Of a DNA stretch of 64,000 nucleotides, positions 2,149-56,380 are shown one piece after another (position 1 is the first letter of the stretch; every line of letters begins with the position of its first letter). The notes beneath the pieces were generated by a model. The model saw nothing but the letters and a program-made list of their open reading frames with translations. It was not told the DNA's origin and searched no databases. The stretch lies in contig OZ038462.1 of the NCBI GenBank assembly GCA_964036295.1, positions 31,458,855 to 31,522,854 on the forward strand, in the 5' to 3' direction. The translations under genes and the position numbers were made by a program. The stretch is from Plumapathes pennacea (taxonomy: Eukaryota; Cnidaria; Anthozoa; Antipatharia; Myriopathidae).

Positions 2149-8463
<6,315 letters not shown>

Positions 8464-10333: not shown

Positions 10334-11233
10334 TCAACGACCAATGAACCGCAAAGCTGCACTGCGCATGCTCTCGTGACGCCAAAAATATATTACGGGA
10401 TTGAGGCTTGAGCTGAGGCACATTGCCAACTTAACCCAAGGCGACGCAAAAACTTGAACGCGGAGTTGATTAGTAGCCATGACAAAGAATGAAAAACTAA
10501 ACATTAGCTATGGAAAAACACTGAGTATTAACGAACCCAGGACAAAGCGCAAAGTGATAGCCAATTTCTTCTCTCTCTCAAACGTGTCTATGTTTGCGGC
10601 CGCGGCTATTTGATTGTTTTGACGACGCACCGCTTTTAAGGTTGCTGCTTGCGAGACTACACAAATTATAATAAAAGACGCAAGCGCTGAAGTTGCTAAA
10701 AGTGTCCTCACAGGACCGCGAGGGATAATGTTTATTAGAATAATGAACGTGACCCATGCAAGCCATACAATGACGACTACTTTCATCATCTTCTTGTTTG
10801 TGACGGTGGTGCGGTAGTTCAGAGGACTGGACAGGGCTTTGTAGCGATCCCAGCACATCACACAGACTTGAACAAACGAACTGCAAACGATCAGCGGTAC
10901 TGCGCGTGAATAAACCATGAATACCTTGCCGTATGCGGAGCAAGTCACATTTGCATTGTGCATAAGATGAAGAATTATGAGGATAGGCTCAGCGACTGCG
11001 CCCACCAGTAAATCACTAAACGCCAAACTGCTGATCAGAATGTTCGGCGGCCTGTGCAGACTGGTATTTCTTATGACTGTGATTATAACGACAGCGTTGC
11101 TGACCAGTGCAAAGATGGCGAATGGAACATGAAATGCCGCGGCTGCAGCGTTGTTGGCGTAGATCAGGGAAGTGATGCTTAAGTCGAAAGGGCATTCCTG
11201 TTTCAAACGCGCTGTTGTACTGTTGCTGGTCAT
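10334..11233 (-). pseudogene. Class A GPCR gene interrupted by one in-frame TAG
   Basis: This intronless rhodopsin-like seven-transmembrane receptor resembles the three receptors at 16494-26004. The frame opens at ATG 11233, fixed by an in-frame TGA twelve bases upstream, and runs 241 codons to TAG at 10508-10510. It then continues without another stop through TM7 to TGA at 10334-10336, giving 299 codons plus stop. The stop replaces a Gln that the paralogues keep after TM6 (SAMPQV/SAVPQV), a CAG to TAG change. Visible features are an N-terminal NST sequon, a TM1 Asn, a CWDRYKA motif after TM3 and NPVIYFWRH at TM7 beyond the stop. If translation ends at TAG, TM7 is lost. It could be a recent pseudogene, a null allele, or a readthrough gene, since TAG is followed by CTA. 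Confidence 0.8.
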
Positions 11234-14975: not shown

Positions 14976-16493
14976 TACATGGGTGTTGAATCTGTTCAAA
15001 GAACACCGGTTACCTATTTTTGCTTGACGGAGTGCTGCGCGAAAAACTGAATCAAAGCAGAAGGCAGTAATTCATTGATTGTATGTGTCGTTGTTTAACT
15101 GTGTGAGACACACGAATGAGTTGACTCCCAAGAACGGCGAATGAAGAACACGAGACGAAATACAATGCGTTGGTTGTGCGATCATGCTTATGCAAATTAA
15201 CGATGAATAGTATAACTCAGCTTTGCACTGCGCTAAGGGTCTTGACAAAGCTTTCATCGACTATCCTTCGACTTTTAGCAGTGATTATACAAGTCATGGC
15301 GTACACAGTGTGAAATTTCGAATCTTTTAACCCTTTCGCTCCTGGGAAAGATTGACTTTGATTTTCTCTTTTCAGTTTCTCACCATAAATATAACCGTAT
15401 GAATGGCATAAAGCAGGGAGAATTGGGCATTTAATATAGCTTTCAAAGAAATTGAACTATCAATTCACACTGCATCACTAATACGTTTTCGTTATGATTA
15501 GTGAGGAGGATTTTTATTCTGAGCTTGGAGTTAAACCACAGGCAACTGTCGTCCTATAGTATATTTCGTATAATTTGTGCGAAAATAGTACTTGTGAGCT
15601 TTTGTCGAGGATCTTGTGTAATATGAGTGAATTTGATCATTGATTTGAAAGAATATTTGAATGTCATTGGTGACATATTTGTAAAATATTTAACATAAAC
15701 AAGCTGTCATTTGAGTTTTAATACTATCAAAAGACAACGTTTCATGGAAAAATGCGCTTTATTTGCGGAGCTATACATTCAGTACTGTTTCGGAAGCTTC
15801 CGATTTGTGTCGGCAAGAAATCGGAAAGCACTCGCGGTGTGACGTCATAGTAGTCCTAAGCGGATCCTGCCCCAAAGCTAAGAGAAACAAAGTGAAGATG
15901 TATACTGAAACTATAAAGAGTAAATTTGATCGATGAACTCGTAAATGTTGCAGTTTCGATTCCTGGTGAGTTCCAGAGCTATTTTCTACCTGTAACACGT
16001 TTCCAGCAAATGCCGGTAGTCTTAACAAACGTAAGGTTCACGTTTAAAAGCTGTTTATGAAAATAATCATTAGAACGATTATTTCCCTTCCTAAAGCACA
16101 AATGTTTGTTTTATTAACTTCACCTCATATCCAATATTTCTAAGGCCAACTTCAAATCAATACATTATATCTATTACAAAGCTAAATGATTACAAGCACG
16201 TTCACATTGATTCCAATAAAAAAGTTCCTTCTAACAAAAAAATCCAACATATTTTCGTGTAATATTAATAAGCTTGATATATGGCATTTGAAATTGTAAG
16301 GTGCGAAGCGAGACGTGGCAATGCAATATTTTCTCTCGATTTTTTCTTTGTACACTTTACGTTTCCGGAACAAGTTGTCCTTATAATTTCCTTTGGACCT
16401 CGCTAAAGCTTTGCCTAAAACAGTCCTTTTCTAGTGTTTCTCAGTGTAGGTCCTCATAATCAGATTGACCGCTGAGCAGAATTAGCCAGTGCT

Positions 16494-17516
16494 TTAGCGA
16501 CCAATGAGCCGCAAAGCTGCACTGCGCATCCCCTCGTGACGCCAAAAGTTGATTATGGGATTGAGGCTCGAGCTTATGCATGTGGCTAAATTAGCCCAAG
16601 GAAAAAGCAAAGCAAGACCGAGAGGTTTCCCTGCAGTGAAAGTAAATGCAATACCAAAAATTACCTGAGGCATTGCGCTGAGTGAAAGAGAACCCAGGAT
16701 CCAGCGCAGAGTGATAGCCATTTTCTTTTCTCTGGCAAACACGGCCATGTTTGTGACCGGCGCTATTTGATTGTTTTGTCGACGCATCGCTTTTAAGGTT
16801 GCTATTTGAGAGACTGCACAAACTGTAATAAAGGACGCAAGAACCACACCAACTATGAGTATTCTCAAACTCTCAGGAATAATTTTCAATAAAATGATAT
16901 AAAGGGTCCATGAGACCCACGAAACAACGGCTAATGTTATCATCTTCTCGTTGGTGACGGTGGTGCGGTAGTTCATAGGACTTGACACGGCTTTGTAGCG
17001 ATCCCAGCACATCACACAGACTTGACCAAACGAACCAAAGACGATCACTGGCACTAAAAGTTTGATCAACGTATCTGGAACATTGTTTACACAACAGTTC
17101 ACACTTGCATTGTGCATCAGCAGAAGAATTACCATGACAGGCTGAACAACTGCGCCCACCAGCAAATCTCCAAACGCCAAACTGCAAAGCAAAATGTTGG
17201 GCGGCCTCTGCAGACTGTTAGTTTTGATAACTGTGAATATAACGACAGCGTTGCTTACCACTGCAAAGATCGAGAGCGGGAGGTGAAGAGCGACGACCGT
17301 TGCGTTATTGGTGTAGGTGTAGGTGTTGATGCCGAATTCGCAGAAACATAGCGCATTTTTGTTGCTGGTCATGTCTTCATCGAATAAGCGCCTCGTTCGG
17401 AGATCAGTTTGTTCGCCGTTTTTTTCACTCGCTGTGAGTCTCAGTGTGGACTGAACTCTCAGTAGTTGATATGCACAGTAAACACAACGGCTGCGTATAT
17501 TAGGTGCACTATACAT
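16494..17516 (-). CDS. Class A GPCR, tandem copy A (intact, intronless)
   Basis: Seven-transmembrane plasma-membrane receptor of the rhodopsin family; ligand unknown. The open frame is 340 codons. By comparison with the 10334-11233 gene, whose frame is closed upstream, translation probably starts at MTSNK (ATG at 17372), giving 292 aa; the 48 residues before it have no signal-peptide character. TM1 carries SNAVVI (Asn1.50), TM2 LAFGDLLVG (Asp2.50), TM3 ends in CWDRYKA (DRY), and TM6 lacks CWxP. TM7 has NPIINF in place of NPxxY, so the activation Tyr is Asn. The tail ends nine residues after the TM7/helix 8 WRHEG. Relatives are the cnidarian melanocortin/adenosine-receptor-like expansions (family knowledge). 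Copies B and C lie downstream at 4.2 kb spacing. Confidence 0.9.
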   Translation of the reverse strand: MYSAPNIRSRCVYCAYQLLRVQSTLRLTASEKNGEQTDLRTRRLFDEDMTSNKNALCFCEFGINTYTYTNNATVVALHLPLSIFAVVSNAVVIFTVIKTNSLQRPPNILLCSLAFGDLLVGAVVQPVMVILLLMHNASVNCCVNNVPDTLIKLLVPVIVFGSFGQVCVMCWDRYKAVSSPMNYRTTVTNEKMITLAVVSWVSWTLYIILLKIIPESLRILIVGVVLASFITVCAVSQIATLKAMRRQNNQIAPVTNMAVFAREKKMAITLRWILGSLSLSAMPQVIFGIAFTFTAGKPLGLALLFPWANLATCISSSLNPIINFWRHEGMRSAALRLIGR

Positions 17517-18536
17517 TTGAGTTTGAATAGGTTCTCTATGACTATAGGATCATTCATGTTTTGTACGAAAACCCGCTAGAATGCGCTATTGTTTGACAAT
17601 AATAACAAAAAGGAGACGGCGTCGGACATACATCCACCTGCATGATCAATCACGAGTCTTTCTAAATATCGAGGGTTGAGGATTCTTTGTCAATGAGAAT
17701 TCAGATTAAAACACTTTGTTTTGGAATGATCACAGGGAATTCCTTTGTTGTGTTTGGCTGATTTCTATTCCTGGCACACTTAATTACTTCTTCTTTATGT
17801 GTTGAAATTCCCAGCAGCTCTTAGACTTATTTACTTGCGGTAATAAGCGACAACGGCCAGTGATTTCAAAAGCGCCCAATTCACGACAGACCACTGATCC
17901 ATACTGCAGTCAGTTTAGGGTACCTGATCAGTATATTGAGAATTATACGGCAATGTTGGCGTCCACAAAACTGTGAGTGTAAACGCCTAACATGCCTAAA
18001 ATTTTTAAAAGACTAGTGAAAAATAGTCCTTAAGAAAATATTTAAATGCTAATGAGACCATTAGAATAGGGTAACCAAATGTTACGTTCACAGGAATCTA
18101 TTTTTGCATTTCGCCGTAGGATTTTATCTTTCTGCAGCTTGCACAAGACAATGATACACTCATTAATTATAAGTGAAAACGCCGAGTCGACGCAGAATTG
18201 TACAATAAACAATTAAGGAAAACATGATGACAGTACCGAAATGATTTATTCCCAGGAGCAAATCTTAGCCATTAGAAAACATATAACAAAACTCGGTAGA
18301 AACTTAAAGGCGGCTACGACAAGTATAGGTTATGTAAAAGAACATGTAAGGTTTCCGACGGTCAGGAATCCATGAAAAGTAAAAAGAATTGCTAGTTATA
18401 ATTGACAGTATTATTAGTCACTCTGCAATACAATAACTTGAGCGGCTGCAAGGATCTTTATTGTCAACTGATTGTGAAACTGTTCTTTTCTGCTGCAGTT
18501 GTTGCTTTCCCATCATTCTCAATGAGTCTTTTCTAT

Positions 18537-18826
18537 GGGCGCGTTCTTTTGGGACTGTTCTTATTCCGGAATAGACAGTAATCGTGTTTTCTTGGGACCT
18601 ATCTGATTCTGGAATGAACGGAATAGTATTCCGTCCATTAATTCTGCTCCCTGCAGAATTGACGGTTTAGCGATGTTTTTTTTTTTTTTTTTTTTTACGT
18701 ATTTCAGGTCCGCTATTCTGTTTTCAAAATAGCGCAAAGTCTGTTCTATTGTTAACTAGTATTCTGTTATTCCTAGTCCGGAATAGGAAAAGACGACGGA
18801 TAGTTCCAAAAGAATGAACCCTATGT
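18537..18826. mobile_element. ATTCCGGAAT MITE in unit 1
   Basis: Ends GCGTTCTTTTGGGAC and GTTCCAAAAGAATGAACCC form imperfect inverted repeats around an interior with ATTCCGGAAT motifs and a long T run (about 18678-18696). Copies occupy the same place in units 2 and 3, so insertion predates the triplication. Confidence 0.65.
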
Positions 18827-20750
18827 TTTACGAGTCTTCAACTGCAAATGTTGAAGCCTGTTCAAAGAGCAAAAGTTTATTAATTCTTTCATCAGAGTGA
18901 CGATTAGTGCGCGAAAAAGTAAACCAAAGCAAAAAGCAGAATTTTATACGTCTAGCTAAGTCACTGTATTTTTAGTCTTGCATACTGTGTAAGGCGACTC
19001 CGACAGGAAAAACGTGAGGGAAAATATAGGGTGTTGCGTGCGGTGTCTTATATGAATAAAGAGAGTATAATGGTACAAAACTTACAAAAATCTTAGTAAA
19101 GGTTTCGCCGACTATCCGGTAGACATAGCAGTGGTTTCACAAGCCATTGTTTAGTATAATATTGCTAATTTTCGAGTCATAAAGGTCAAAATTATCAAGT
19201 AATGAATATACTAATAGTTTGGGCCGTGTTTTAACAAGCGAGTTTTAGCTGGAAGATCTCTTCGTTGTTCGAATGGAACTTCTTCGATGCATGGCACGCA
19301 CGGGCAAATATAGAATACATGCAATCCCAGCAGTCGTGAGCTTCTATGAACTAGACTTCAACATTTTCACGAGTCATTTTCCTGCTCTTGTTTAAAGTTT
19401 GTAAGTACAGAAAGTAAACAACACAGGCTAAATTTACTTTCTATCGCAAAATTACCTGAACAATTTATTCCGTTTACAGTCCCTCGTATTACCCTATACT
19501 ACAGTTGACACGTTACAAAAATAACTTGAATTATGTTGCCTTAGACCGACATATTTTGAAAATTTTACAAAATATAATATTTACACAAGCAGATTTACTC
19601 AATTTTAGCCTTTATATATAGTACAAAAGTTCACATAAACTTCTGTAGATTGTAATTTTTAATTCTCAGCAGAGTGACTATGAACAACCAGTCTGTACTG
19701 TTGAAGCCGTTTTGATTTATCAAGCCAATAAAATATGTATGTATGTATGTTTAATTCTAGTATTTGCCCCAGTAAGGATGGTTCAAAACCGGTTTTTCGT
19801 CGTTTAAACCAATTCGACTTGTAGTAAACCGGTACGATTGAAGAAAATTTAAGGGTTTGAAGCAACTAGTATCAGTTGTTCCTCTTGTCTGACATCATAG
19901 ACCAATTGAAAGTAACAATAGAACGGTTTTCGAAAACATAAACAAGGTGTCATTTGAGTTAATACTATCAAAAGACAACGTTTCATGGAAAAATACGCTT
20001 TATTTGCGGAGCTATACATTCAGTACTATTTCGGAAGCTTCCGATTTGTGTCGGCAAGAGATCGGAAAGCATTCGGTGTGACGTCATAGTTGTCCTAAGC
20101 GGATCCTGCCCCAAAGAGAAACAAAGTGAAGATGTATACTGAAAGCATAAAGAGTAAATTTGATCGATGAACTCGTAAATGTTGCAGTTTCGATTCCTGG
20201 TGAGTTCGAGAGCTATTTTCTACCTGCAGTAACACGTTTCCAGCAAATGCCGGTAGTCTTAACAAACGTAAGGTTCACGTTTAAAAGCTGTTTGTGAAAT
20301 AATCACTAGAACGCTCACTTCCCTCCCTAAAGCACAAATGTTTGTTTTACTAACTTCACCTCATATCCAAATATTTTTAATGCCAACTTCAAATCAATAC
20401 ATATATCTATTGCAAAGCTAAATAATTACAAGCACGTTCATTGATTCCAATAAGAAGTTCGTTCCAACGAAAAGATCCAACATCTTTTCGTGTAACAAGC
20501 TTATTGATATATGGCATTTGAAACTGTAAGGTGCGAAGCAATAGTGGCAATGCAATATTTTCTCTCGATTCTTTTATACATGTTTAAAATTTTTTCCTTG
20601 TACGTTTCTCGGAGCTTAAAAGACAAGTTGTCATTGCAATATAATTTCCTTCGGACCTCGATAAAGCTTTGCCTAAATCAGACCTTTTATAGCGTGTCTC
20701 AGTGTAGGTCTTCATAATTAAATTGTTCGCTGCGCAGAATTAGCCAGTGC

Positions 20751-21773
20751 TTAGCGACCAATGAGCAGCAAAGCTGCACTGCGCATCCCCTCGTGACGCC
20801 AAAAATTGATTATGGGATTGAGGCTCGAGCTTACGCACATGGCTAAATTAACCCAAGGGAAAAACAAAGCAAGACCAAGAGTTTTCCCGGTAATGAAATA
20901 AAATGCAGTACCAAAAACTACCTGAGGCACTGCGCTGAGTAAGAGAGAACCTAGGATCCAGCGTAAAGTGATAGCCATTTTCTTTTCTCTGGTAAACACG
21001 GCCATGTTTGTGGCCGGCGCTATTTGATTGTTTTGTCGACGCATCGCTTTTAAGGTTGCTATTTGAGAGACTGCACAAACAATAATAAAGGACCCAAGAG
21101 CCACACTAGCCGTTAGTATTCTCAAAATCTTAGGAATAATTTTCAATAAAAAGACATAAAAAGCCCATGAGACCCACAAAACCACGGCTAATGTTATCAT
21201 CTTCTCGTTGGTGACAGTGGTGCGGTAGTTCATAGGACTTGACACGGCTTTGTAGCGATCCCAGCACATCACACAGACTTGACCAAACGAACCAAAGACG
21301 ATCACTGGCACTAAACGTTTGAACAACGTATCTGGAACATTGTTTGCACAGCAGTTCACACCTGCATTGTGCATCAGCAGAAGAATTACCATGACAGGCT
21401 GAACAACTGCGCCCACCAGCAAATCCCCAAACGCCAAACTGCAGAGCAAAATGTTGGGCGGCCTGTGCAGACTGTTGGTTTTGATAACTGTGAATATAAC
21501 GACAGCGTTGCTTACCACTGCAAAGATGGAGAGCGGGAGGTGAAGAGCGACGACCGTTGCGTTATTGGCGTAGGTGTAGGTGTTGATGCCGAATTCGCAG
21601 AAACATAGCGCAGTTTTGTTGCTGGTCATGTCTTCATCGAGTAAGCGCCTCATTCGGAGATCAGTTTGTTCGCCGGTTTTTTCACTCGCTGTGAGTCTCA
21701 GTGTGGACTGAACTCTCAGTAGTTGATATGCACAGTAAACACAACGGCTGCGTATATTAGGTGCACTATACAT
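20751..21773 (-). CDS. Class A GPCR, tandem copy B (intact, intronless)
   Basis: Same architecture as copy A: 340 open codons, probable functional start at MTSNK (ATG at 21629), DRY motif in CWDRYKA and NPIINF at TM7. Against copy A the changes cluster in TM4 to extracellular loop 2 to TM5 (LWVSWAFYVFLLKIIPKILR here, SWVSWTLYIILLKIIPESLR in A) and in TM6 to loop 3 (AFYFITGKTLG here, AFTFTAGKPLG in A). The DRY to intracellular loop 2 segment, with the YRTTVTNEKM sequence, is identical. This suggests changed ligand recognition with conserved G-protein coupling. The penultimate tail Arg is Leu here (ALLLIGR). Ligand unknown. Confidence 0.9.
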   Translation of the reverse strand: MYSAPNIRSRCVYCAYQLLRVQSTLRLTASEKTGEQTDLRMRRLLDEDMTSNKTALCFCEFGINTYTYANNATVVALHLPLSIFAVVSNAVVIFTVIKTNSLHRPPNILLCSLAFGDLLVGAVVQPVMVILLLMHNAGVNCCANNVPDTLFKRLVPVIVFGSFGQVCVMCWDRYKAVSSPMNYRTTVTNEKMITLAVVLWVSWAFYVFLLKIIPKILRILTASVALGSFIIVCAVSQIATLKAMRRQNNQIAPATNMAVFTREKKMAITLRWILGSLLLSAVPQVVFGTAFYFITGKTLGLALFFPWVNLAMCVSSSLNPIINFWRHEGMRSAALLLIGR

Positions 21774-22774
21774 TTGAGTTTAAATAGGTTCTCTATGACT
21801 ATAGGATCATTCATGTTTTGCACGAAAACCCGCTAGAATGTGCTATTGTTTGACAATAATAACAAAAAGGAGACGGCGTGGGACATACATCCACCTGCAT
21901 GATCAATCACGAGTCTTTCTAAATATCGAGGGTTGAGGATTCTTTGTCGATGAGAATTCAGATTAAAACACTTTGTTTTGGAATGATCACAGGGAATTCC
22001 TTTGTTGTGTTTGGCTGATTTCTATTCCTGGCACACTTAATTACTTCATCTTCTTTATGTGTTGAAATTCCCAGCAGCTCTTAGACTTATTTACTTGCGG
22101 TAATAAGCGACAACGGCCAGTGATTTCAAAAGCGCCCAATTCACGACAGACAACTGATCCATACTGCAGTCAGTTTAGGGTACCTGACCAGTATATTGAG
22201 AATTATACGGCAATGTTGGCGTCCACAAAACTGTGAGTGTAAACGCCTAACATGCCTAAAATTTTTAAAAGACTAGTGAAAAGTAGTCCTTAAGAAAATA
22301 TTTAAATGCTAATGAGACCATTAGAATAGGGTAACCAAATGTTACGTTCACAGGAATCTATTTTTGCATTTCGCCGTAGGTTTTTATCTTGCCGCAGCTT
22401 GCACAAGACAATGATACACTCATTAATTATAAGTGAAAACGCCGAGTCGACGCAGAATTGTACAATAAACACTTACGGAAAAAATGATGACAGTACCGAA
22501 TGACTTATTCCCAGGAGCAAATCTTAGGCATTAGAAAACATATAACAAAACTCGGTAGAAACTTAAAGGCGGCTACGAGAAGTATAGGTTATGTAAAAGA
22601 ACATGTAAGGTTTCCGACGGTCAGGAATCCATGAAAAGTAAAAAGCATTGCTAGTTGTATTCGACAGTATTATTAGTCACTCTGCAATACAATAACTTGA
22701 GCGGCTGCAAGGATCTTTATTGTCAACTGATTGTGAAACTGTTCTTTTCTGCTGCAGTTGTTGCTTTCCCATCA

Positions 22775-23053
22775 ATCTGTTCTTATTCCGGAATAGACGG
22801 TAATCGTGTTTTCTTGGGACCTATCTGATTCTGGAATGAACGGCATAGTATTCCGTCCATTAATTCTGCTCCCTGCAGAATTGACGGTATAGCGATGTTT
22901 TCTTTTTTTTTTTTTTTTTTTTTTTGTTTTACGTATTTCAGGTCCGCTATTCTGTTTTCAAAATAGCGCAAAGTCTGTTCTATTGTTAACTGGTATTCTG
23001 TTATTCCTAGTCCGGAATAGGAAAAGACGACGGATAGTTCCAAAAGAATGAAC
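22775..23053. mobile_element. ATTCCGGAAT MITE in unit 2 (5'-truncated)
   Basis: Same element as at 18537-18826. The left terminal sequence TCTTTTCTATGGGCGCGTTC is missing here, so this copy starts directly at TCTGTTCTTATTCCGGAATAG. The interior T run is interrupted by a C and a G. Confidence 0.6.
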
Positions 23054-24981
23054 CCTATGTTTTACGAGTCTTCAACTGCAAATGTTGAAGCCTGTTCAAA
23101 GAGCAAAAGTTTATTTATTCTTTCATCAGAGTGAAGATTAGTGCGCGAAAAAGTAAACCAAAGCAAAAAGCAGAATTTTATACGTCTAGCTAAGTTACTG
23201 TATTTTTAGTCTTGCATACTGTGTAAGGCGACTCCGACAGGAAAAACGCGAGGGAAAATAGGGTGTTGCGTGCGGTGTCTTATATGAATAAAGAGAGTAT
23301 AATGGTACAAAACTTACAAAAATCTTAGTAAAGGTTTCGCCGACTATCCGGTAGACATAGCAGTGGTTTCACAAGCCATGGTTTAGTATAATATTGCTAA
23401 GTTTCGAGTCATAAAAGTCAAAATTATCAAGTAATGAATATACTAATAGTTTGGGCCGTGTTTTAACAAGCGAGTTTTAGCTGGAAGATCTCTTCGTTGT
23501 TCGAATAGAACTTTTTCGATGCATGGCGCATGGGCTAATATAGAATACATGCAATCCCAGCAGTCGTGAGCTTCTATGAACTAGACTTCAACATTTTCAC
23601 GAGTCATTTTCCTGCTCTTGCTTAAAGTTTGTAAGTACAGAAAGTAAACAACACAGGCTAAATTTACTTACTATCGCAAAATTAACTGAATAATTTATTC
23701 CGTTTACAGTCCCTCGTATTACCCTATACTACAGTTGACACGTTACAAAAATAACTTGAATTATGTTGCCTTAGACCGACATATTTTGAAAATTTTACAA
23801 AATATAATATTTACACAAGCAGATTTACTCAATTTTAGCCTTTATATATAGTACAAAAGTTCACATAAACTTCTGTAGATTGTAATTTTTAATTCTCAGC
23901 AGAGTGACTATGAACAACCAGTCTGTACTGTTGAAGCCGTTTTGATTTATCAAGCCAATAAAATATGTATGTATGTATGTTTAATTCTAGTATTTGCCCC
24001 AGTAAGGATGGTTCAAAACCGGTTTTTCGTCGTTTAAACCAATTCGACTTGTAGTAAACCGGTACGATTGAAGAAAATTTAAGGGTTTGAAGCAACTAGT
24101 ATCAGTTGTTCCTCTTGTCTGACATCATAGACCAATTGAAAGTAACAATAGAGCGGTTTTCGAAAACATAAACAAGGTGTCATTTGAGTTAATACTATCA
24201 AAAGACAACTTTTCATGGAAAAATACGCTTTATTTGCGGAGCTATACATTCAGTACTATTTCGGAAGCTTCCGATTTGTGTCGGCAAGAGATCGGAAAGC
24301 ATTCGGTGTGACGTCATAGTTGTCCTAAGCGGATCCTGCCCCAAAGAGAAACAAAGTGAAGATGTATACTGAAAGCATAAAGAGTAAATTTGATCGATGA
24401 ACTCGTAAATGTTGCAGTTTCGATTCCTGGTGAGTTCGAGAGCTATTTTCTACCTGCAGTAACACGTTTCCAGCAAATGCCGGTAGTCTTAACAAACGTA
24501 AGGTTCACGTTTAAAAGCTGTTTGTGAAAATAATCACTAGAACGCTCACTTCCCTCCCTAAAGCACAAATGTTTGTTTTACTAACTTCACCTCATATCCA
24601 AATATTTTTAATGCCAACTTCAAATCAATACATATATCTATTGCAAAGCTGAATAATTACAAGCACGTTCATTGATTCCAATAAGAAGTTCGTTCTAACA
24701 AAAAGATCCAACATCTTTTCGTGTAACAAGCTTATTGATATATGGCATTTGAAATTGTAAGGTGCGAAGCAATAGTGGCAATGCAATATTTTCTCTCGAT
24801 TCTTTTATACATGTTTGAAATTTTTTCCTTGTACGTTTCTCGGAGCTTAAAAGACGGGCTGTCCTTGCAATATAATTTCCTTCGGGCCTCGATAAAGCTT
24901 TGCCTAAAACAGACCTTTTATAGCGTGTCTCAATGTAGGTCTTCATAATTAAATTGTTCGCTGCGCAGAATTAGCCAGTGC

Positions 24982-26004
24982 TTAGCGACCAATGAGCCGC
25001 AAAGCTGCACTGCGCATCCCCTCGTGACGCCAAAAATTGATTATAGGATTGAGGCTCGAGCTTATGCATATGGCTAAATTAACCCAAGGGAAAAACAAAG
25101 CAAGACCGAGACTTTTCCTGGTAGTGAAATAAAATGCAGTACCAAAACCCACCTGAGGCACTGCGCTGAGTAAGAGAGAACCCAGGATCCAGCGTACAGT
25201 GATAGCCATTTTCTTTTCTCTGGTAAACACGGCCATGTTTGTGACCGGCGCTATTTGATTGTTTTGTCGACGCATCGCTTTTAAGGTTGCTATTTGAGAG
25301 ACTGCACAAACTGTAATAAATGACCCAAGAACCACACTAGCCGTTAGTATTCTCAAAATCTTAGGAATAATTTTCAATAAAAAGATATAAAAAGCCCATG
25401 AGACCCACGAAACCACGGCTAATGTTATCATCTTCTCGTTGGTGACGGTGGTGCGGTAGTTCATAGGACTTGACACGGCTTTGTAGCGATCCCAGCACAT
25501 CACACAGACTTGAACAAACGAACCAAAGACGATCACTGGCACTAAAAGTTTGAACAACTTTACTGGAACATTGTTTGCACAGCAGTTCACACCTGCATTG
25601 TGCATCAGCAGAAGAATTACCAGGACAGGCTGAACAACTGCGCCCACCAGCAAATCCCCAAACGCCAAACTGCAGAGCAAAATGTTGGGCGGCCTGTGCA
25701 GACTGTTGGTTTTGATAACTGTGCATATAACGACAGCGTTGCTTACCACTGCAAAGATCGAGAGCGGGAGGTGAAGAGCGACGACCGTTGCGTTATTGGC
25801 GTAGGTGTAGGTGTTGATGCCGAATTCGCAGAAACATGGCTCACTTTTGTTGCTGGTCATGTCTTCATCGAGTAAGCGCCTCGTTCGGAGATCAGTTTGT
25901 TCGCCGTTTTTTTCACTCGCTGCGAGTCTCAGTGTGGACTGAACTCTCAGTAGTTGATATGCACAGTAAACACAACGGCTGCGTATATTAGGTGCACTAT
26001 ACAT
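24982..26004 (-). CDS. Class A GPCR, tandem copy C (intact, intronless)
   Basis: 340 open codons, probable functional start at MTSNK (ATG at 25860). It is closest to copy B: TM4-TM5 reads SWVSWAFYIFLLKIIPKILR. It has private changes at the TM2/TM3 boundary (NNVPVKLFK where B has NNVPDTLFK), in TM3 (GSFVQVC) and in TM6-loop 3 (QVGFGTAFYFTTRKSLG). CWDRYKA and NPIINFWRHEG are retained. Loss of Asp-Thr for Val-Lys before TM3 and gain of Arg in loop 3 would alter the extracellular face. Like its paralogues it has a very short C-terminal tail. Ligand unknown. Confidence 0.9.
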   Translation of the reverse strand: MYSAPNIRSRCVYCAYQLLRVQSTLRLAASEKNGEQTDLRTRRLLDEDMTSNKSEPCFCEFGINTYTYANNATVVALHLPLSIFAVVSNAVVICTVIKTNSLHRPPNILLCSLAFGDLLVGAVVQPVLVILLLMHNAGVNCCANNVPVKLFKLLVPVIVFGSFVQVCVMCWDRYKAVSSPMNYRTTVTNEKMITLAVVSWVSWAFYIFLLKIIPKILRILTASVVLGSFITVCAVSQIATLKAMRRQNNQIAPVTNMAVFTREKKMAITVRWILGSLLLSAVPQVGFGTAFYFTTRKSLGLALFFPWVNLAICISSSLNPIINFWRHEGMRSAALRLIGR

Positions 26005-27018
26005 TTGAGTTTAAATAGGTTCTCTATGACTATAGGATCATTCATGTTTTGCACGAAAACCCGCTAGAATGCGCTATTGTTTGACAATAATAACAAAAAG
26101 GAGACGGCGTCGGACATACATCCACCTGCATGATCAATCACGAGTCTTTCTAAATATCGAGGGTTGAGGATTCTTTGTCGATGAGAATTCAGATTAAAAC
26201 ACTTTGTTTTGGAATGGTCACAAGGAATTCCTTTGCTGTGTTTGGCTGATTTCTATTCCTGGCACACTTAATTACTTCATCTTCTTTATGTGTTGAAATT
26301 CCCAGCAGCTCTTAGACTTATTTACTTGCGGTAATAAGCGACAACGGCCAGTGATTTCAAAAGCGCCCAATTCACGACAGACCACTGATCAATACTGCAG
26401 TCAGTTTAGGGTACCTGACCAGTATATTGAGAATTATACGGCAATGTTGGCGTCCACAAAACTGTGAGTGTAAACGCCTAACATGCCTAAAATTTTTAAA
26501 AGACTAGATTGTCCTTAAGAAAATATTTAAATGCTAATGAGACCATTAGAATAGGGTAACCAAATGTTACGTTCACAGGAATCTATTTTTGCATTTCGCC
26601 GTAGGTTTTTATCTTTCTGCAGCTTGCACAAGACAATGATACACTCATTAATTATAAGCGAAAACGTAGAGTCGACGCAGAATTGTACAATAAATAATTA
26701 AGGAAAAAATGATGACAGTACGGAAATGACTTATTCCCAGGAGCAAATCTTAGGCATTAGAAAACATATAACAAAACTCGGTAGAAACTTAAAGGCGGCT
26801 ACGAGAAGTATAGGTTATGTAAAAGAACATGTAAGGTTTCCGACGGTCAGGAATCCATGAAAAGTAAAAAGCATTGATAGTTATATTCGACAGTATTATT
26901 AGTCACTCTACAATACAATAACTTGAGCGGCTGCAAGGATCTTTATTGTCAACTGATTGTGAAACTGTTCTTTTCTGCTGCAGTTGTTGCTTTCCCATCA
27001 ATCTCAATGAGTCTTTTC

Positions 27019-27312
27019 TATGGGCGCGTTCTTTTGGGACTGTTCTTATTCCGGAATAGACAGTAATCGTGTTTTCTTGGGACCTATCTGATTCTGGAAT
27101 GAACGGAATAGTATTCCGTCCATTAATTCTGCTCCTGCAGAATTGACGGTATAGCGATGTTTTTTTTTTTTTTTTTTTTTTTTACGTATTTCAGGTCCGC
27201 TATTCTGTTTTCAAAATAGCGCAAAGTCTGTTCTATTGTTAACTGGTATTCTGTTATTCCTAGTCCGGAATAGGAAAAGACGACGGAATATAGTTCCAAA
27301 AGAATGAACCCT
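27019..27312. mobile_element. ATTCCGGAAT MITE in unit 3
   Basis: Third positional copy of the MITE, with both ends present (GGCGCGTTCTTTTGGGAC near 27024 and GTTCCAAAAGAATGAACCC near 27294). It contains an uninterrupted T run of about 23 bases near 27160. Confidence 0.6.
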
Positions 27313-28786
27313 ATGTTTTACGAGTCTTCAACTGCAAATGTTGAAGCCTGTTCAAAGAGCAAAAGTTTATTTATTCTTTCTTCAGAGTGAAGATTAGTGC
27401 ACGAAAAAGTAAACCAAAGCGAAAGGCAGAATTTTATACGTCTAGCTAAGGTATTCGTATTTTTAGTCTTGCATACTGTGTAAGGCGACTCCGACAGGAA
27501 AAAACGCGAGAGAAAATAGTGTTTTGCGTGCGGTGTATTATACAACAGTATAATGGTACAAAACTTACAAAGATATTAGTAAAGGTTTCGCCGACTATCC
27601 GGTAAGCAGTGGTTTCACAAGCCATGGTTTAGTATAATATTGCTCAATTTCGAGTCATAAAAGTCAAAATTATGAAGTAATGAATACTAATAGTTTGGGC
27701 CGTGTTTTAACAAGCGAGTTTTAGCTGGACGATCTCTACGATGTTCGAATAGAACTTTTTCGATGCATGGCGCGCATGGGCTAATATAGAATTTATTTGC
27801 AATCCCAGCAGTCGTGAGCTTCTATGAACTAGACTTCAACATTTTCACGAGTCATTTTCCTGCTCTTGCTTAAAGTTTGTAAGTACAGAAAGTAAACAAC
27901 GCAGAAGCTAAATTTACTTTCTATCGCAAAATTAACTGAATAATTTATTCCGTTTACAGTCCCTCATATTACTCTATACTACTGTTGACACGTTACAAAA
28001 ATAATTTGAATTATGTTGCCTTCTTAATATAGACCGACATATTTTGAAAATTCTGCAAAGTTTTACACAACCAGATTTACTCAATGTTAGCCTTTATATA
28101 GTACAAAAGTTCACATAAACTTCTGTAGAGCGTAATTTTTAATTCTCAGTAGAGTGAATATGAACAACCAGCCTGTACTGTTGAAGCTGTTTAAATTTAT
28201 CAAGCCAATAAAATATGTATGAATGTATGTATGTATAATTTTAGTACTTGCCGGTTTTTCGTTCTTTAAACCGATTCGACTTGTAGTAAACCGGTACGAT
28301 TAAAGAAAACTTGTGGGTTTGAAGCCACGATTATCAGTTGTTCCTCTTATGATATAATAGACGGATTGAAAGTAACAATACTGTAACGACTGACTTACTG
28401 ACCAACTATCAAAACAACTGTACAGCCAGTGACCAATCGACCAACCATTGAAACCTTTGAGCTTTCATAACCATCACAACAACGAACACACATCTAAATA
28501 CCATGATCTGACGACGTTCAGTCACCACCAACATTCTTTCTGAAGACTACTCTCACCCAGATGATCACACTAGATGAACAGAACTTGATCTACACCTTAC
28601 GTGTGAACGCTGTGCGATATGGGTAAAAAAAATCAAATTTGTAAAAAAACGGTCTTTTTATATCTATAGTATTCACTCACAGCTGTGGACATCGGATCAT
28701 CGAAGAATGAAAACATCTGCATGCAGGGGTTCCTTTCTCGTAGGTACGTCGGTCTAGCAGGGTTACAAGAGTACCTCGCCGCGAGT

Positions 28787-30300
28787 CTACTTCTTCCCTG
28801 TTTTTAGACTAGTGCTGCTACTTTTTTTTCGATTCCCTGAGGATGAGGGTGGTCGGAGTGGGTACTGAGCCAGGACGGTCGATTTGCGGCCGGATTTCTT
28901 CTCTCCCTTGCCGGAGTCTTTGCCACTCTCCTTCTCCACAGAAGACGGACGCAGTAGCTCTTGAATGTCTTCACTCTCCTTGCCTGCATTTGCCACTAGC
29001 TCAAAGCACTTGGAGAGGTTCGTTTCTTCAATGTCCTTTTTCGATAGCAACTGCATCATATCCTTCCCGTCACTGAGGGGGTTCAACCACGTGGATTTTC
29101 TCACGTCTTTCAGTTTGATGCCCGTTCCTCTCGGCACGTAGATATGGAACAACACCTCGATAGCCTCCGCTTTTGTAAGCGCCCTGCCTTTAGCTGACGC
29201 TGCAGCAAAACAACACAAGAACTCAGCCAAACTAGCAGTTACTTAACAATTATTCGCCGAAGTGGAGGTGAATAGCGGTGGATATTTACCGAGTCGTTTC
29301 GGCGATTTACCGAGTCGTTTCGGCGTTTCGGCGAGGTAAATATCCACCGCTATTCACCGACACTGACACTTAGTATATACCACACAAGTTTAATAGCCAA
29401 CTCCCAAATAGCTATTTTATTTCCGACAAAAGTGGGCAAAAATTGGGTTCGCGCGCCATTTTGTTTTACCAGAAACCGCCGGGAGGTGAATAGTACTTGA
29501 TATTCCGAGATTGAGGAGCCAATCAGAACGCGCGAAAAGCACTATTCACTTGTGTGGTATATACTAAAATGCGATATTCGCAAATGTTTCCATCGCCCAC
29601 ATGGCTATAGACATCAGTGTCTTACTACACGCATGCACGCACGATGGGCACGATTGAACTACATACAATATTTTCAGCGAAAAACTGTTCCAACCAAACT
29701 CTTTCAAACATTGTATTCCCTTAGTTACCAAACAGAGAAAATCATGTCATGTACAATAGTTACTGATTAGATATTAGAGATAGCAAAATATTAGGCCGAC
29801 TCTTTGAATCGGGTCGGCGGGGTCAGTACTTGGATGGGTGACACAAACGGAAGACCCGGTGTTGCAAGTTCCTTTTCTTCTTATTTTTGTTCACTGCGCA
29901 ACCAAAACTTCAAATTCTTTTTTCTCTTAGAGAATTATCTCTAACACAATAAAACTTCGGTTTTGCGAGAACAATATAACTTACACTTGGTGATTAGTTC
30001 AATCGCTTCATCGATCTCTTTCTGAGAAGGAAAGTGCCCCACTGACTTGAAATATTCTTTCAGGTCCTTGTAAGCCACAACACCATTGACAGCAAACTTT
30101 TCGAAAGCCACTTCATATTCTGTGGAAAAAAAAACAAAAACAAACAAAAACAAAAACAAAACAAAAACAAAACAAAACAAAACAGAAGAAAAGTTACATT
30201 TTTTCAGGGGTGACGGAGAGGTAATTCATTAGACCACTTCAGTCTAAACGCAATGCTTGAAAGTTGAAACTCTATTTATTGGATTAAATCTTCCAAACTT

Positions 30301-39300: not shown

Positions 39301-42300
39301 TATCCAGGTCTGATTCTTTTAATCGTTTACTCACTCTCTCTCTGTCGTACTCCATCTGTTTTCCTATGGGAGTCACCATTCCCAGTACCGTGTTCAATCT
39401 GATGCCATCACCTTTCAGGCTACGAGAAAAAGACGCCATTGATAAGACACAGGGCGCAGGAAAATACCAAGAAAGCGTCCTCGTCCCAGGCTCTTTTCTC
39501 GGGGCGGGGTTGGGTAAAGAGCCTGGGAATGAAGGTGTGAGCGCAGAACGCGGACGGGAATACGGAAGAGGGTCGGGCAGCTCTCCTCTGACAGACAGCA
39601 AACAGGTCAAACAAAAGGACACACTCATTGAGTCCTTCACCGCCAAGTTCTACTGACTAAACTAAACCTAAAGATATAGACTCCGCTCCACAATAACACG
39701 AACACTGTGTGACCACAGCTCTAAACACGAAGGCTGGAAATCGAAGGTAGAATCCAGTAGTCACAGTGTATGAACCTCCTTGACATCCGTATAAACGAAC
39801 ACCGCGAACAAAAACGTCACGATTTACAGAAAATGGCACAGCGTCGCACTTTTCACCGTCGTAATGCAATGAACTTGAGGGAACTTGGACAGACCAAAAT
39901 CTGTTAATGCGCCTCGTTGTGTATCTTCGTCGTACATTAGCCAAAAACTTTAGTGGTGATGCCAGTGCATCGTTGAAGTGAAAGAAAATGTCGCGTATTT
40001 CTTTTTGTGGGAGTAGGTTTGTTGTTGAGGCGACAGATGCAAAATCCTCTTCTGTCATTAATGGGTTTTCCTTGTTCAGGTTTGAGTTATTTAATTTTAT
40101 TAGTATACTGTTTGATGATATAGAATTTTATTATTCAGACTTTACTATTTAAGCACCTGTAGTTTGTCTATGTTGTCATTCGATCGGTCCGCTATATATG
40201 CCTTGGAGGAGGTTTTAAATTATGTCTGTGTATAAATTGTTTCTATTGAAATTTCGACAAGAATCTATAGTTTTGTTGATTCGTTGGAAACTTTGACCAT
40301 GGTGTTTCATCTGAACAAAATCTCTGGAAACTGACCACGCCCGACATCCGTACCATTTGTACTTGAATTCGTGCTTGAAAAAGTGAAAGTTATCTCGTCA
40401 TCAGGCACCTGTGTTTTGCCTGCACTTCCATTGTATGATACAGGACCGTTGATCAAAGCTCTTATTTCATATAGTTCATTTTTCTTAACAGCAGCAGGTT
40501 TTTTGAAGAGCATGTCGAAGCCATAGTAGCCATTCACCTCGTCTTGGTCTGTGTCAAACCTGCCCATTTTTTCAGTCATCTTGATTTCTTTGTGGTAGAT
40601 TCCAATAGTCACAGTGTATGAACCGCCTTGACATCCGTATAAACGAATACCGCGAACAGAAACGTCGCAATTTACAGAAAATGCCACAGCGTCGCACTTT
40701 TTACTGTTGTAATTCCATGCACCTGTGGGAGCGTTGACAGAAACGAACCTCTTAATGCGCCTCATTGTGTAGTTGTATCTTCGTCCTACATTAGAAAACT
40801 TTAGTGGTGATACCAGTTCGTCGTTGAAATGAAAGAAAATGTCGCATATTTCTTTTTGTGGGAGTAGGTTTGTTGTTGAGGCGACGGATGCAAACTCCTT
40901 TTGAGTCATCAGGGGGAAGCGAATAAGATTGATGGCGTCTCCAAGTATCCTCCTCTTTTCCTCCCCGGTGATTTCTCGCTGCATTATCTTGCATTGATGT
41001 TCAACCCATCGATCCACAGCTTTAAAGATTTTGACCTCGCTGGCGTTCAGCGAGTCCCTCTCGAGAACAGCTTTCAGCAAGTAATGACTGATATCAAGAA
41101 ATGGCTCAGAGTTCATGGCTTCCTCCGAAGTTTCGGCGATCGTCTCCCAGCACTCTTCGACCAATGTTGCTTCTTCATAGAGCTGGGCTCCTGGCAGGAC
41201 AGAGAACACATTTGTGGCGTCGAGATTCTCGCGAAGGAATTTCGTGCACTCATCCGACAAGGAAGGAATCATGTACTTCTTGGCGAGGTACAGAACTTGG
41301 ATAACGTTACTTCCGGTTAGCTTCACTTCATCACAGTAGAGAAAGCGAAGAAGTTCCATAAAACTATCGGAGTCGCAGTCAGGAAGTTCAATGGTGTCTG
41401 ATGTGTCAGGCGTTTGTCCGTAAAACATGGCGAAAAAGACTGAGCTGCTGATGGCCAGGATGTACTTGTGAGCGGGAATGACTAGCGACTGTTGTCGATC
41501 GGTGTTGGAATCCTTGACGGAGAATTTGACATCGCTGATCAAAGTGTTGTTAAACATGTGCTTGTTCCTTTCCTTGAGAGAGTTCTTGGAGATTTGCCAG
41601 TTGGTTTGGGAAGACTTTGCAGCTGCCATGTTTAGTTTTGTGAGCGAGATTCACACAGGAAATAACCAGCGTAACTGCACCGAACGGAAGAACGAGTCGA
41701 AAGTGAAACTTGTGTCGTGCAAGGCGCTTACGTCACTAAAAGTCACGTGTCGATGATAAAATGCAAAACAATTGATTGTTCTGTTGCAGCCGTGTGATGA
41801 GAAAATATGTGAATGATTACATCCTCAATGATGGTAAAAGTCAGACAAGACAAGCAAGAATGTGACCGGATCAACAGAACCGGAAAATCAATGCTGCTGC
41901 TACAACTAGAGTGCCTTCAATAAACCCGTGAAATAGATACTCGACTATTAGACTCCAAGTAGATGTCAGAATGGACTATGCCACTGAAAATTTTCTCAAA
42001 AACCCCAGATTCTACTAAAAAAGGGCGCTTTCCAGGGAAGCACAGAGCCACCTGTCAATCAACAGCGACCGAGACAACAGCTCCTAATTAGTAAAGAGCC
42101 AAAAAATTTCCAAATTTTGTTTTTCCTTGTACCTGCAAATACCCGCAAAAGAAAGATAATGTTGCCCTACCAATTTTCTATCACATAAACATTCATTTTG
42201 AGTGCAGTTTGAGTAAAATCCAAGGATAATTTTCAAAGCAAAAATCAAATATGCTTGGCGCTTGCGCCATGCGTCGCATTACACCGCGAAATTCAAAATG

Positions 42301-51760: not shown

Positions 51761-53495
51761 TAAATCAACCAGGTTTTGATCCAGAGTTCATTGCCAGTTT
51801 CTCTTTAAAGTAAAGTAACTTGTTTCACAATCCAGTTCGCTTGATTTCTGGTGTAAGGACCAGTCAGTCAGTCAGTTGTATAACTTCACTGTTCAAGTGC
51901 ATCTCGTTTATCTCAGCCGGCTGCTCTTCATCTTTTCCTGGCCTTTGCTCTTGTTGATGGTTTTCGTTTCTCGGAGGTTCCGCTGGAACTCCTACCCTTT
52001 GCGCAGCGGCTCTTAAAATGTTGATGTGAATAAAAGGATTCGCGACGTAGTCCAAATTGGATATCGACAACAACAAAGCCTTGATCCCTCGGACTTCAGG
52101 TGAAGTGAAACCTGCAAATGATCTGACAATGGCAAACGACGAGAGAGGAATCCAGGAAATAACAAGGAAAAACAGCACCATGTAAGAAAATCTGGTTACC
52201 CGGAACTCCGACTTCTGATTGCTTTCTGCGAAAGGCGACAAGCTTAGTTTTTTCACAATTCGTACAAAAGTAGTAATTATTATGGTGATGGTTCCGAACA
52301 GATAACTATTTCCAAACGCCAAGGTGTAAGTATTAGCGATTGTCTTGTGTTGCACTCCAGCGTAGCAGTTGCTTTCGGCATTGTCCACAGCCAAAATTAC
52401 CAGAACTACGGTCACCAAAGTAGCAGCTGACCAGATACCTCTGACAATTTTGCGCACATTGACAGCCGTGATGCGTCTTTTAAAGGGACGCACGACGGAA
52501 TCGTGTCTATCAATCGCCATAGCAACAAGGGTAAGTGTTTGCAAACCAAGGAAAAACAGAGAAGCAGAGTATCTTGCGACGCAAAACCCTCCGGGAAGAG
52601 GCTTGTGGAAAAACTATTCCATGACAATATTGGCGAGAGATAACGGGACGTAAATACCACTGACTAGTTCACCGATTAAGGACAGGTTTCCAAGGAAGAC
52701 ACGAGGGACTTTTCGGAGATCTTTTCGTTTGTACAGAATGAAACAAACATGGAAATTTTTAGGAAAACCGATGAGAAGTTCAGCAGCGAGAATGAATGTA
52801 GTAGCAAGGCCGAGACTCTTGCTGAAAGGAGCTGGATACTCACTAGAAACCAATCCGTTGCTGAAATTTGAAACTAAAGCCGAGTTATTCATTTTCTTGA
52901 AATGCTGTGATGCTCTCCTTGCGCTGACAGAGTAGAATCTGCGGCAGCACCTACTCGAACGCTGCGCTTTTATCGAGTACGGAAGAAACAATAATCTAGC
53001 TGAAATGATTTTTTTAACACGGTTGTTTACGTATTTTATATAAATTATGCACGCAGTTTTTTGTAAAAGAAGGACGAAGCATCGAAGATTTAATTACACG
53101 AAAAACAAACTGTATATTCAGCATCCGCAGGAAATTAAAGACACGTACTAGAATGAGTTTAAAACTTTTCAAGTCAGGCCTTTCAACTTATTTTCGTATA
53201 TTTTACCGAAAGTCTCGTCTATGGTTTTCCTTCAATGAAATACATTTCTGCTTTCTGGACCTTGAGAACAATATACAAGATATAGCTTGTATCTGTGTGG
53301 TTTCCACGTCATTATGCTACCATTCTATTTATAGAATAACTATGATACTACGCGAATCCTGATTGGCTAAATAACCGGTTAAGATGAAAACACACTACAC
53401 GCTGACGTTATACGTGATGCATTTTATTGACACTTTGAAAAGGATTGTTAAAATCTGACTGATTGTGATGTTGTTAATATTTTGACAGTGATGCT
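51761..53495. repeat. Second GPCR tandem duplication, unit 1
   Basis: Begins TAAATCAACCAGG and ends after TTTGACAGTG. It is colinear with unit 2 (53496-55200) at about 1.73 kb offset, including the 3' flank, the receptor and the upstream TTTGGACCTTGAGAACAATATAC-like region. It contains the interrupted receptor copy. Confidence 0.88.
51864..52991 (-). pseudogene. GPCR copy interrupted by one in-frame TAG
   Basis: Intronless paralogue of the receptor at 53577-54704. The frame opens at ATG 52991 (family-like start MNNSALVSN at 52892), stops at TAG 52614-52616 after NIVME, then continues in the same frame to the stop at 51864 with no further lesion. The intact copy has CAG (Gln) at this position, a single C to T change. 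The stop falls in the extracellular loop between TM2 and TM3, so the product would keep only two helices. The rest differs from the intact copy by scattered substitutions (LAVDNAESNCYAG for ITVDNGESNCYEG in loop 2). An internal Met after the stop (MQTLTLVAMAIDRH) could not give a full receptor. Confidence 0.85.
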
Positions 53496-55200: not shown

Positions 55201-56380
55201 AGATAATTACTAACAGTCATAGTAACAAAAAAGATGTTCGTATTTATAATTACTTAGTCGTATATTTTATTGTTGAATTTTAAAATATAATAAAAAAAGC
55301 CAAGAAAAAAATGTTCAGTTCTTATAGCTGATTCAGGGTAAAAAGTACTCTAATTTGAATATAAAAACAGTATTTCTAAAGGACCTTGACTGATGAAGTT
55401 ATCCTGAATCGTTCAGATAGCTTTGAGTTTGCCTCGTTAAAATTCGTGGGTAGTCTTTTATCATGTGTTCCGCCTCGGCTACATTCATTGCGTTCCAGTA
55501 AATGCGAAAAATTGTGGAGGACTTTCGGGAACATACCATTTAAATAGCGTTAACGCTTTCATTTGTATAGCAAAATCTTAAAAGGTGAAATGATTTTTTT
55601 CCAATACAAAACACTCTATCTCACAACGTATGTATTAAGATCTCGAGCACTGTTAGAAAATTTTCGTACCATTAGCTCCAAATTTTAAAAGGAGTATTTC
55701 ATACCAAATTATTCATTAAAGCGACGGCAATAAAGTGTAAAATGTACGCATCGGGCTATGATTAAATAAATCAATACAAGCAAAATGATGAAGCAAAGGT
55801 GATTAAAAATCCGAAACTTAAAATGTTTGCATGTGTACGGTAGTAACGATTAAACCGGAAAGAAATAAGAGACTTCGTCGAACTAAATTCGTTTCCTCCA
55901 GTCTTTTATTACTAAATTTTGATGAGGTATATCTTTCGTTAATTTTGAATCATTTGTTTACTCTTTTTGACAGCAAAAATAAAAACTTAGGTAAAAGTGG
56001 CAGGGCTAACTATAAATTAATCTTCGTCGCGAGGAGGTGGGAACACAGAAGCTGAGAGGGCAGGAAGTCTACGGGAAGCGGGAGAAGAGAAGGTGGTATG
56101 CGGGCTTTCTTAGCGTCGAACAGCTGTTTGAGCTCTAAATGTTACCCAACGTGAGGCGGCTGTATTCGCAGACACCAGAGATTCGGGAAGTGAAGAATTT
56201 TAAACGACGCGTGTTGAAAGTTTCCGCTATATAAATGAAAGTCGACAGACAGACAAGATATCGACAAGTAAAGAGATGTTGGGCCAGTCTCGCCCCCCCA
56301 AAAATGAACTCCCAAAGGGTCAATAAATTTTAATGTCGGCAATCAAAATATGTTTCCTTTTTCTTCTGTATTAGGATCAT
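55201..56380. other. Intergenic region, SLX4 3' flank
   Basis: AT-rich sequence without a gene. It should contain the SLX4 3' UTR: a minus-strand AATAAA (plus TTTATT at 55905-55910) lies about 475 bases past the stop and is a candidate polyadenylation signal, unproven. Confidence 0.4.

Follow-up and report, generated by a model that had tools for sequence, protein, structure and literature searches.

Three tandem receptor genes, here called A, B and C, were examined in a stretch of 64,000 nucleotides from the antipatharian Plumapathes pennacea (assembly GCA_964036295.1, contig OZ038462.1, positions 31,458,855 to 31,522,854 of the forward strand); this whole stretch, which contains no N, is referred to as the window. 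The genes are best read, with a probability of about 0.7, as a young array of class A G-protein-coupled receptors (GPCRs) that would have grown by unequal exchange and in which the outer halves of the receptors would have diverged by weak constraint and probably some positive selection.

Three tandem units and a mosaic middle unit

Comparison of the window with itself (self-BLAST, plus MAFFT alignment of the units) resolved three head-to-tail units of ~4.2 kb each, all on the minus strand: unit 1 (15692..19920), unit 2 (19935..24150) and unit 3 (24165..28380). Each harbours one gene that consists of a single open reading frame (ORF) of 340 aa, namely gene A (16494..17516), gene B (20751..21773) and gene C (24982..26004), again on the minus strand. 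An older paralogue on the same strand, O (10337..11233), has a frame that is open apart from one in-frame stop in transmembrane helix 6 (TM6). As O begins with MTSN, the second ATG of A, B and C (at 17372, 21629 and 25860, respectively) is the likelier start, and codons 49-340 (292 codons, hence a 292-aa product) were therefore analysed.

The Pfam profile 7tm_1 matched A, B and C at E values of 3.4e-20, 6.3e-19 and 9.3e-19, respectively (73.0, 68.9 and 68.3 bits, against a cut-off of 30.5), and WDRY, which carries the DRY motif at the end of TM3, is present in all three and in O. In TM7, the position of the NPxxY motif is occupied by NPIIN in A, B and C and by NPVIY in O. Variants of NPxxY occur among class A receptors, so membership in that class rests on the 7tm_1 profile together with DRY, and by these two features A, B and C are class A (rhodopsin-like) GPCRs. 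The profile of vertebrate-type olfactory receptors (7tm_4) also passed its cut-off of 27, at 29.2, 35.5 and 31.8 bits, but was set aside in view of the far higher 7tm_1 scores.

Unit 2 is a mosaic of the other two. At 214 sites it sides with either unit 1 or unit 3; to the left of the maximum of a walk along these sites (18882-18891) it goes with unit 3 at 110 and with unit 1 at 34, while to the right the numbers are 12 and 58, and the observed descent of the walk was reached in none of 20,000 permutations. A two-segment fit placed the break at 18901-18911 with a gain in log likelihood (lnL) of 35.7, and break points within 2 lnL extend to 16926 and 19486; a position upstream of the gene, at about 18.9 kb, is the most likely one. 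The site patterns and the breakpoint fit thus identify unit 2 as a recombinant with a left side like that of unit 3 and a right side like that of unit 1, as would be produced by misaligned exchange in a two-copy array of A and C. By its site pattern, gene B is of C type in its coding region and to the 3′ side but of A type far upstream.

Units 1 and 2 are separated by a 14-bp filler (19921..19934), and units 2 and 3 by the same filler with one A/G difference (24151..24164), while the filler is found at neither outer edge of the array. A filler common to both junctions implies that one original join was copied, either by unequal crossing-over or by a haplotype switch in the assembly, and both junctions probably descend from that one founding join. 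The following order of events is proposed. As the junction suggests, one gene with its flanks would have been duplicated and joined by the filler to give A-J-C (J, junction); a misaligned exchange of C-type and A-type units, for which the observed mosaic speaks, would then have given A-J-(C-left|A-right)-J-C; and later short exchanges would account for the star-like 5′ tract of all units and for the near identity of the arms next to the junctions.

Divergence between units 1 and 2 varies greatly along their length. It is 3.9% at 15692-16186, 13.4% (40/299 sites) at 16187-16493, which lies directly 3′ of gene A and exceeds every other noncoding stretch, 9.3 and 3.1% in the coding sequence (CDS), taken in two parts, 1.5% at 17373-18099, 2.7% at 18100-18839, 2.2% at 18840-19533 and nil (0/355) at 19534-19920. 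In this far right flank, where units 1 and 2 are identical, unit 3 differs from both by 8.7%, whereas the 5′ upstream tract (17373..18839) is low in all pairs (1.5-2.7%) and star-like, with 16, 14 and 13 private changes of units 1, 2 and 3, respectively, in 1422 sites. The preliminary description of this locus had taken the flanks of units 1 and 2 to be almost identical. That is true of the 5′ side, owing to the recombinant nature of unit 2 (far upstream like unit 1, gene side like unit 3), but not of the 3′ side, which is more diverged than the CDS (56/876 sites; P=3e-4) and on a par with codons 205-340 at their silent sites (11/99; P=0.61). The 200-site windows with the highest silent or noncoding divergence were located at 16221-16424 for units 1 and 2 (within the 3′ flank and so clear of the CDS), at 16343-16686 for units 1 and 3 (3′ flank and 3′ end of the gene) and at 19681-19904 for units 2 and 3 (the far right, upstream end); none of 2000 shuffles reached any of these three peaks.

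Replacement changes in the outer and inner halves of the receptors

The outer half was defined as codons 49-85, 118-161, 201-230 and 278-314 and the inner half as the rest of codons 49-340, with N in TM1, D in TM2, DRY, W in TM4 and P in TM6 and TM7 as anchors; the numbering of these anchors is presumed, and most of them are visible in alignments to solved receptors. An AlphaFold2 model contained seven long helices (68-98, 105-136, 146-178, 187-210, 215-250, 258-295 and 305-337, in ORF numbering) plus one of four residues, and the midpoints of the helices lie close to the boundaries between the halves, a weak check as the mean predicted local distance difference test score is only 38.8.

Among A, B and C, 35 of the 148 outer codons but only 9 of the 144 inner ones vary in amino acid (P=3e-5; Fisher's exact test), and 7 of 291 rotations of the mask reached 35 variable outer codons. 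It is the C-terminal part that accounts for the contrast (from codon 187 on: 24/67 outer versus 6/87 inner; P=9e-6). Residues that differ between A and B amount to 11 of 30 in the segment TM4-extracellular loop 2 (ECL2)-TM5 (codons 201-230; 16827..16916 in gene A, minus strand, as are the following) and 12 of 37 in TM6-ECL3-TM7 (codons 278-314; 16575..16685), while TM2-ECL1-TM3 (codons 118-161; 17034..17165) differs at 4 of 44 residues between A and B and at 6 of 44 between A and C. The focus of changes on the outer half, which the preliminary description had noted, was thus borne out. Its figure of about one base in ten between 16860-16930 and 21117-21187 agrees with the count (9/71 bases), and the segment of DRY and intracellular loop 2, described there as unchanged, indeed has no amino-acid change in codons 165-198 (S199L in B comes next); the NPIINF tail of TM7, likewise said to be unchanged, carries one, R336L in B.

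Over the whole gene, the ratio of replacement to silent substitution rates (dN/dS) is 0.60 for A-B, 0.76 for A-C and 0.83 for B-C, and 0.49-0.56 against O. Replacement and silent differences are partitioned unequally between the halves, with 31:8 outer versus 6:11 inner for A-B (P=0.002; Fisher's exact test) and 34:8 versus 5:8 for A-C (P=0.006). The values for the two halves were estimated by maximum likelihood (ML) with custom code (GY94-type, F3x4) that was checked by our own simulations only. With A, B and C only, dN/dS was 1.62 in the outer and 0.31 in the inner half (twice the lnL difference (2ΔlnL) 25.5), and with O included on its own branch rates the values for the trio were 1.53 and 0.30. 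Strict silent differences are not more frequent in the outer half (outer versus inner: 5/114 versus 8/126 for A-B, 5/114 versus 7/128 for A-C and 4/129 versus 3/126 for B-C); a higher density of mutation there therefore does not explain the contrast. The copies would thus have diverged in the outer half, which faces the ligand, with constraint maintained on the inner half, which faces the G protein, and on this pattern A, B and C would likely share the same coupling and differ in ligand preference.

In a test for positive selection, comparison of site models M1a and M2a over all four sequences gave a 2ΔlnL of 15.2, which 0 of 60 simulations reached under each of two nulls, although these simulations did not include the silent heterogeneity of O between the halves. 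With that heterogeneity freed, the value fell to 8.7 (P=0.013, obtained without simulation); the figure of 15.2 was accordingly rejected as sole evidence. For A, B and C alone it was 1.7, and a branch model with a separate dN/dS for the whole trio was unsupported (2ΔlnL 1.6).

The correction is required by a feature of O. Silent third-position differences from O are much denser in the outer than in the inner half of A (24/57 versus 15/97; P=4.5e-4), B (26/61 versus 19/100; P=0.002) and C (24/60 versus 16/99; P=0.001), so that silent divergence is two to three times higher in the outer segments. When freed, the O branch was 1.9-4.1 times longer in the outer half under five models (P from 0.007 to 2e-13), with an outer scale of 4.1 in the freest of them (P=4e-6), where dN/dS on this branch was 0.50 outer and 0.71 inner. 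Within the trio this silent contrast is absent, and the contrast of A-O differs from that of A-B (log-odds difference, z=2.5). By these counts, the outer excess within the trio is an excess of replacements, whereas that in the comparison with O is largely divergence of all kinds. The silent pattern weakens a family-wide test for positive selection, and it hints at conversion of inner segments.

Weighing the alternatives

Several observations weigh against the favoured account. The mask was drawn only after the variable sites had been listed; codons 49-186 alone show no significant contrast (11/81 outer versus 3/57 inner; P=0.15), nor do replacement and silent differences between B and C (rounded, 16:4 outer versus 7:4 inner; P=0.41, Fisher's exact test); the outer dN/dS of the trio is not significantly above 1 (2ΔlnL 3.17); outer replacement divergence of A-B from codon 187 on (25/151) does not significantly exceed that of either the 3′ flank (P=0.40) or silent sites (13/111; P=0.29); and arms of like type differ at 2 of 839 noncoding sites next to the junctions but at 25 of 975 distal ones (P=1.7e-5). 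The last of these bears on the history of the array, as a single exchange predicts uniform divergence between units 2 and 3 on the left and between units 1 and 2 on the right, so that further events, or variation between alleles, must be invoked; later short conversions, exchange between different homologues or a haplotype switch in the assembly may have been involved. If each haplotype held only two copies (A-C and A′-C′), a switch between haplotypes would write A-(C′|A′)-C, and B versus C would be an allelic difference. Such an artefact predicts the mosaic and the common junction just as real unequal exchange does, and the patchy divergence of 0-4% between like arms fits allelic variation, but nothing in the sequence requires it, given three intact genes and no N, and A versus B or C would still call for two real copies; we regard it as unlikely, though by no means negligible. 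Far less probable is that conversion made both flanks uniform and skipped the coding part, as the preliminary description had offered. The low divergence of the 5′ tract in all pairs would fit, but the 3′ flank exceeds the CDS, and the identity at the far right is confined to units 1 and 2, which is the mosaic and not general homogenisation; most of the flank contrast goes back to the history of recombination.

On the side of selection, the closest competitor holds that the outer half drifted after duplication under relaxed constraint only, without positive selection; it shares the array history with the favoured account, and we give it somewhat less than an even chance. It is consistent with an outer dN/dS that does not significantly exceed 1 in the trio or with all four sequences (2ΔlnL 0.67), and with outer replacement divergence near the level of the neutral flank. 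The M1a-M2a result over four sequences and the trio's outer point estimates above 1 (1.5-1.6) speak for some positive selection, yet the former shrinks once O is corrected for and more so in the trio alone. The preliminary description's appeal to positive selection on ligand binding therefore stands in part: the diversification of the outer half is real, while dN/dS is not significantly above 1 there and is below 1 gene-wide. That description had also named, as findings that would count against it, silent divergence equal to that of the flank, dN/dS below 1 and changes spread evenly; silent divergence does match that of the 3′ flank and dN/dS over the whole gene stays below 1, yet the distribution of changes is uneven. 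A further, rather doubtful possibility is that conversion erases differences and selection purges converted ligand-facing segments, so that the outer half would keep older silent differences. It would account for the outer/inner silent contrast with O, for the longer outer O branch, for the absence of such a contrast within the trio and for the overlap of the silent peak of units 1 and 3 with the coding end for TM6-ECL3-TM7. However, 6, 22 and 7 of 291 mask rotations did equally well for A, B and C, P rises to 0.018-0.048 once silent changes that adjoin a first-position change are removed, and clustered mutation could also have given the contrast. The peak of units 1 and 2 is confined to the noncoding 3′ flank, and that of units 2 and 3 sits at the far right end; the trio's silent peaks, outside the gene or only overlapping its 3′ end, thus appear to lend this explanation little support. 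In an elaboration that we consider improbable, the gene would be an age mosaic, with single transmembrane halves as its pieces, in which four inner blocks (~80-140 bp each) were repeatedly converted between O and the trio, while the four outer blocks that alternate with them escaped for several times longer as converted receptors lost needed ligand specificity. If true, silent sites would map the ligand-facing surface and could serve to predict which residues face the ligand in receptor arrays not yet characterised.

Related systems and other features of the window

By sequence, the nearest solved structures are aminergic, trace-amine and melanocortin receptors, among them the melanocortin receptor MC2R with a near full-length alignment (profile positions 30-290; E 5e-12). 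All are distant, and unlike them A, B and C carry NPIIN in place of NPxxY and lack a Cys both at codon 148, which we take to be the equivalent of TM3 position 3.25, and in ECL2. The three receptors have a Cys pair at codons 141-142 and a very short ECL2 (codons 211-217). The classical disulphide between ECL2 and TM3 thus seems to be absent, as it is in melanocortin receptors. Of the stretches that fitted a pattern designed for relatives, 21 in a viral contig set and 16 in a genome contig set, none was confirmed, and Rfam gave no match at gathering score.

The array is probably of an ordinary kind: receptor genes multiplied by unequal exchange in a birth-and-death process, with an inner half held under constraint and an outer half that evolves fast. 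Neighbouring copies are of unlike age and include a broken one: silent divergence (dS) is 0.04-0.10 within the trio and 0.52-0.56 to O, which carries one stop. Divergence of the outer half is the usual route to new specificities in sensing-receptor families.

In a study of coral genomes (PMC10236652), tandem duplication is described as pervasive, with the rhodopsin-like GPCR as the commonest domain among amplified groups (34/192); birth-and-death via tandem duplication is proposed there, and gene conversion is said not to appear common. The families it describes are likewise tandem copies at one locus, and what the present array adds is a recombinant middle unit together with low-divergence tracts visible in one array. 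For Acropora, copy gains are attributed to unequal crossing-over (non-allelic homologous recombination) or break-induced replication (PMC12314368). The mechanism proposed here, misaligned exchange leading to tandem duplication, is the same, with the crossover bracketed within a unit and a single founding junction recognisable. The human red and green opsin genes, reviewed in PMC3924837, are likewise tandem GPCR genes, in which a divergence peak stands amid gene conversion and low divergence flanks a more diverged functional part; the possibility that inner blocks were converted while outer ones escaped is patterned on this opsin model and on the islands described in PMC3728101. Unlike in the opsins, the silent peak of units 1 and 2 lies outside the CDS, that of units 1 and 3 only overlaps the 3′ end, and there is no known functional residue.

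With one founding junction and one recombinant middle unit, the array allows recombination history to be separated from selection, and its outer/inner contrast persists once regional divergence is corrected for. A trap is exposed as well, as uneven silent divergence along a receptor can inflate the signal of positive selection in standard site tests.

Rhodopsin-type receptors of a different subfamily form another tandem pair at 51826-55201. One member (53577-54605) is intact and encodes 342 aa; its neighbour (about 51864-52892) is 90% identical in protein sequence and is interrupted by just one in-frame stop (codon 93). The pair has a dN/dS of 0.39. As an independent test of the outer/inner contrast it was not significant (19/168 outer versus 9/132 inner; P=0.23), with six changes in the C-terminal tail (codons 301-342) left out. 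Codons 155-200 (approximately TM4-ECL2-TM5) hold 12 of the 34 differences, the stop being counted as one of the 34 (P=0.001), although this stretch was set post hoc. Both broken receptor copies of the window, this neighbour and O, have one in-frame stop each in an otherwise open frame, which suggests a loss that is recent or still polymorphic.

Several repeats were found elsewhere in the window. Two stretches at 39746-40058 and 40594-40909 are 86% identical over 319 columns; the repeat is a piece of a BTB-BACK-PHR gene (40307-41629, minus strand) that was copied just past the 3′ end of that gene. Separate arrays of related 32-bp tandem repeats lie at 4062-4348 and 6893-7148. A dispersed repeat of ~170 bp occurs at 1501-1673 and 29324-29485 in opposite orientation with 87% identity, and is possibly a mobile element.

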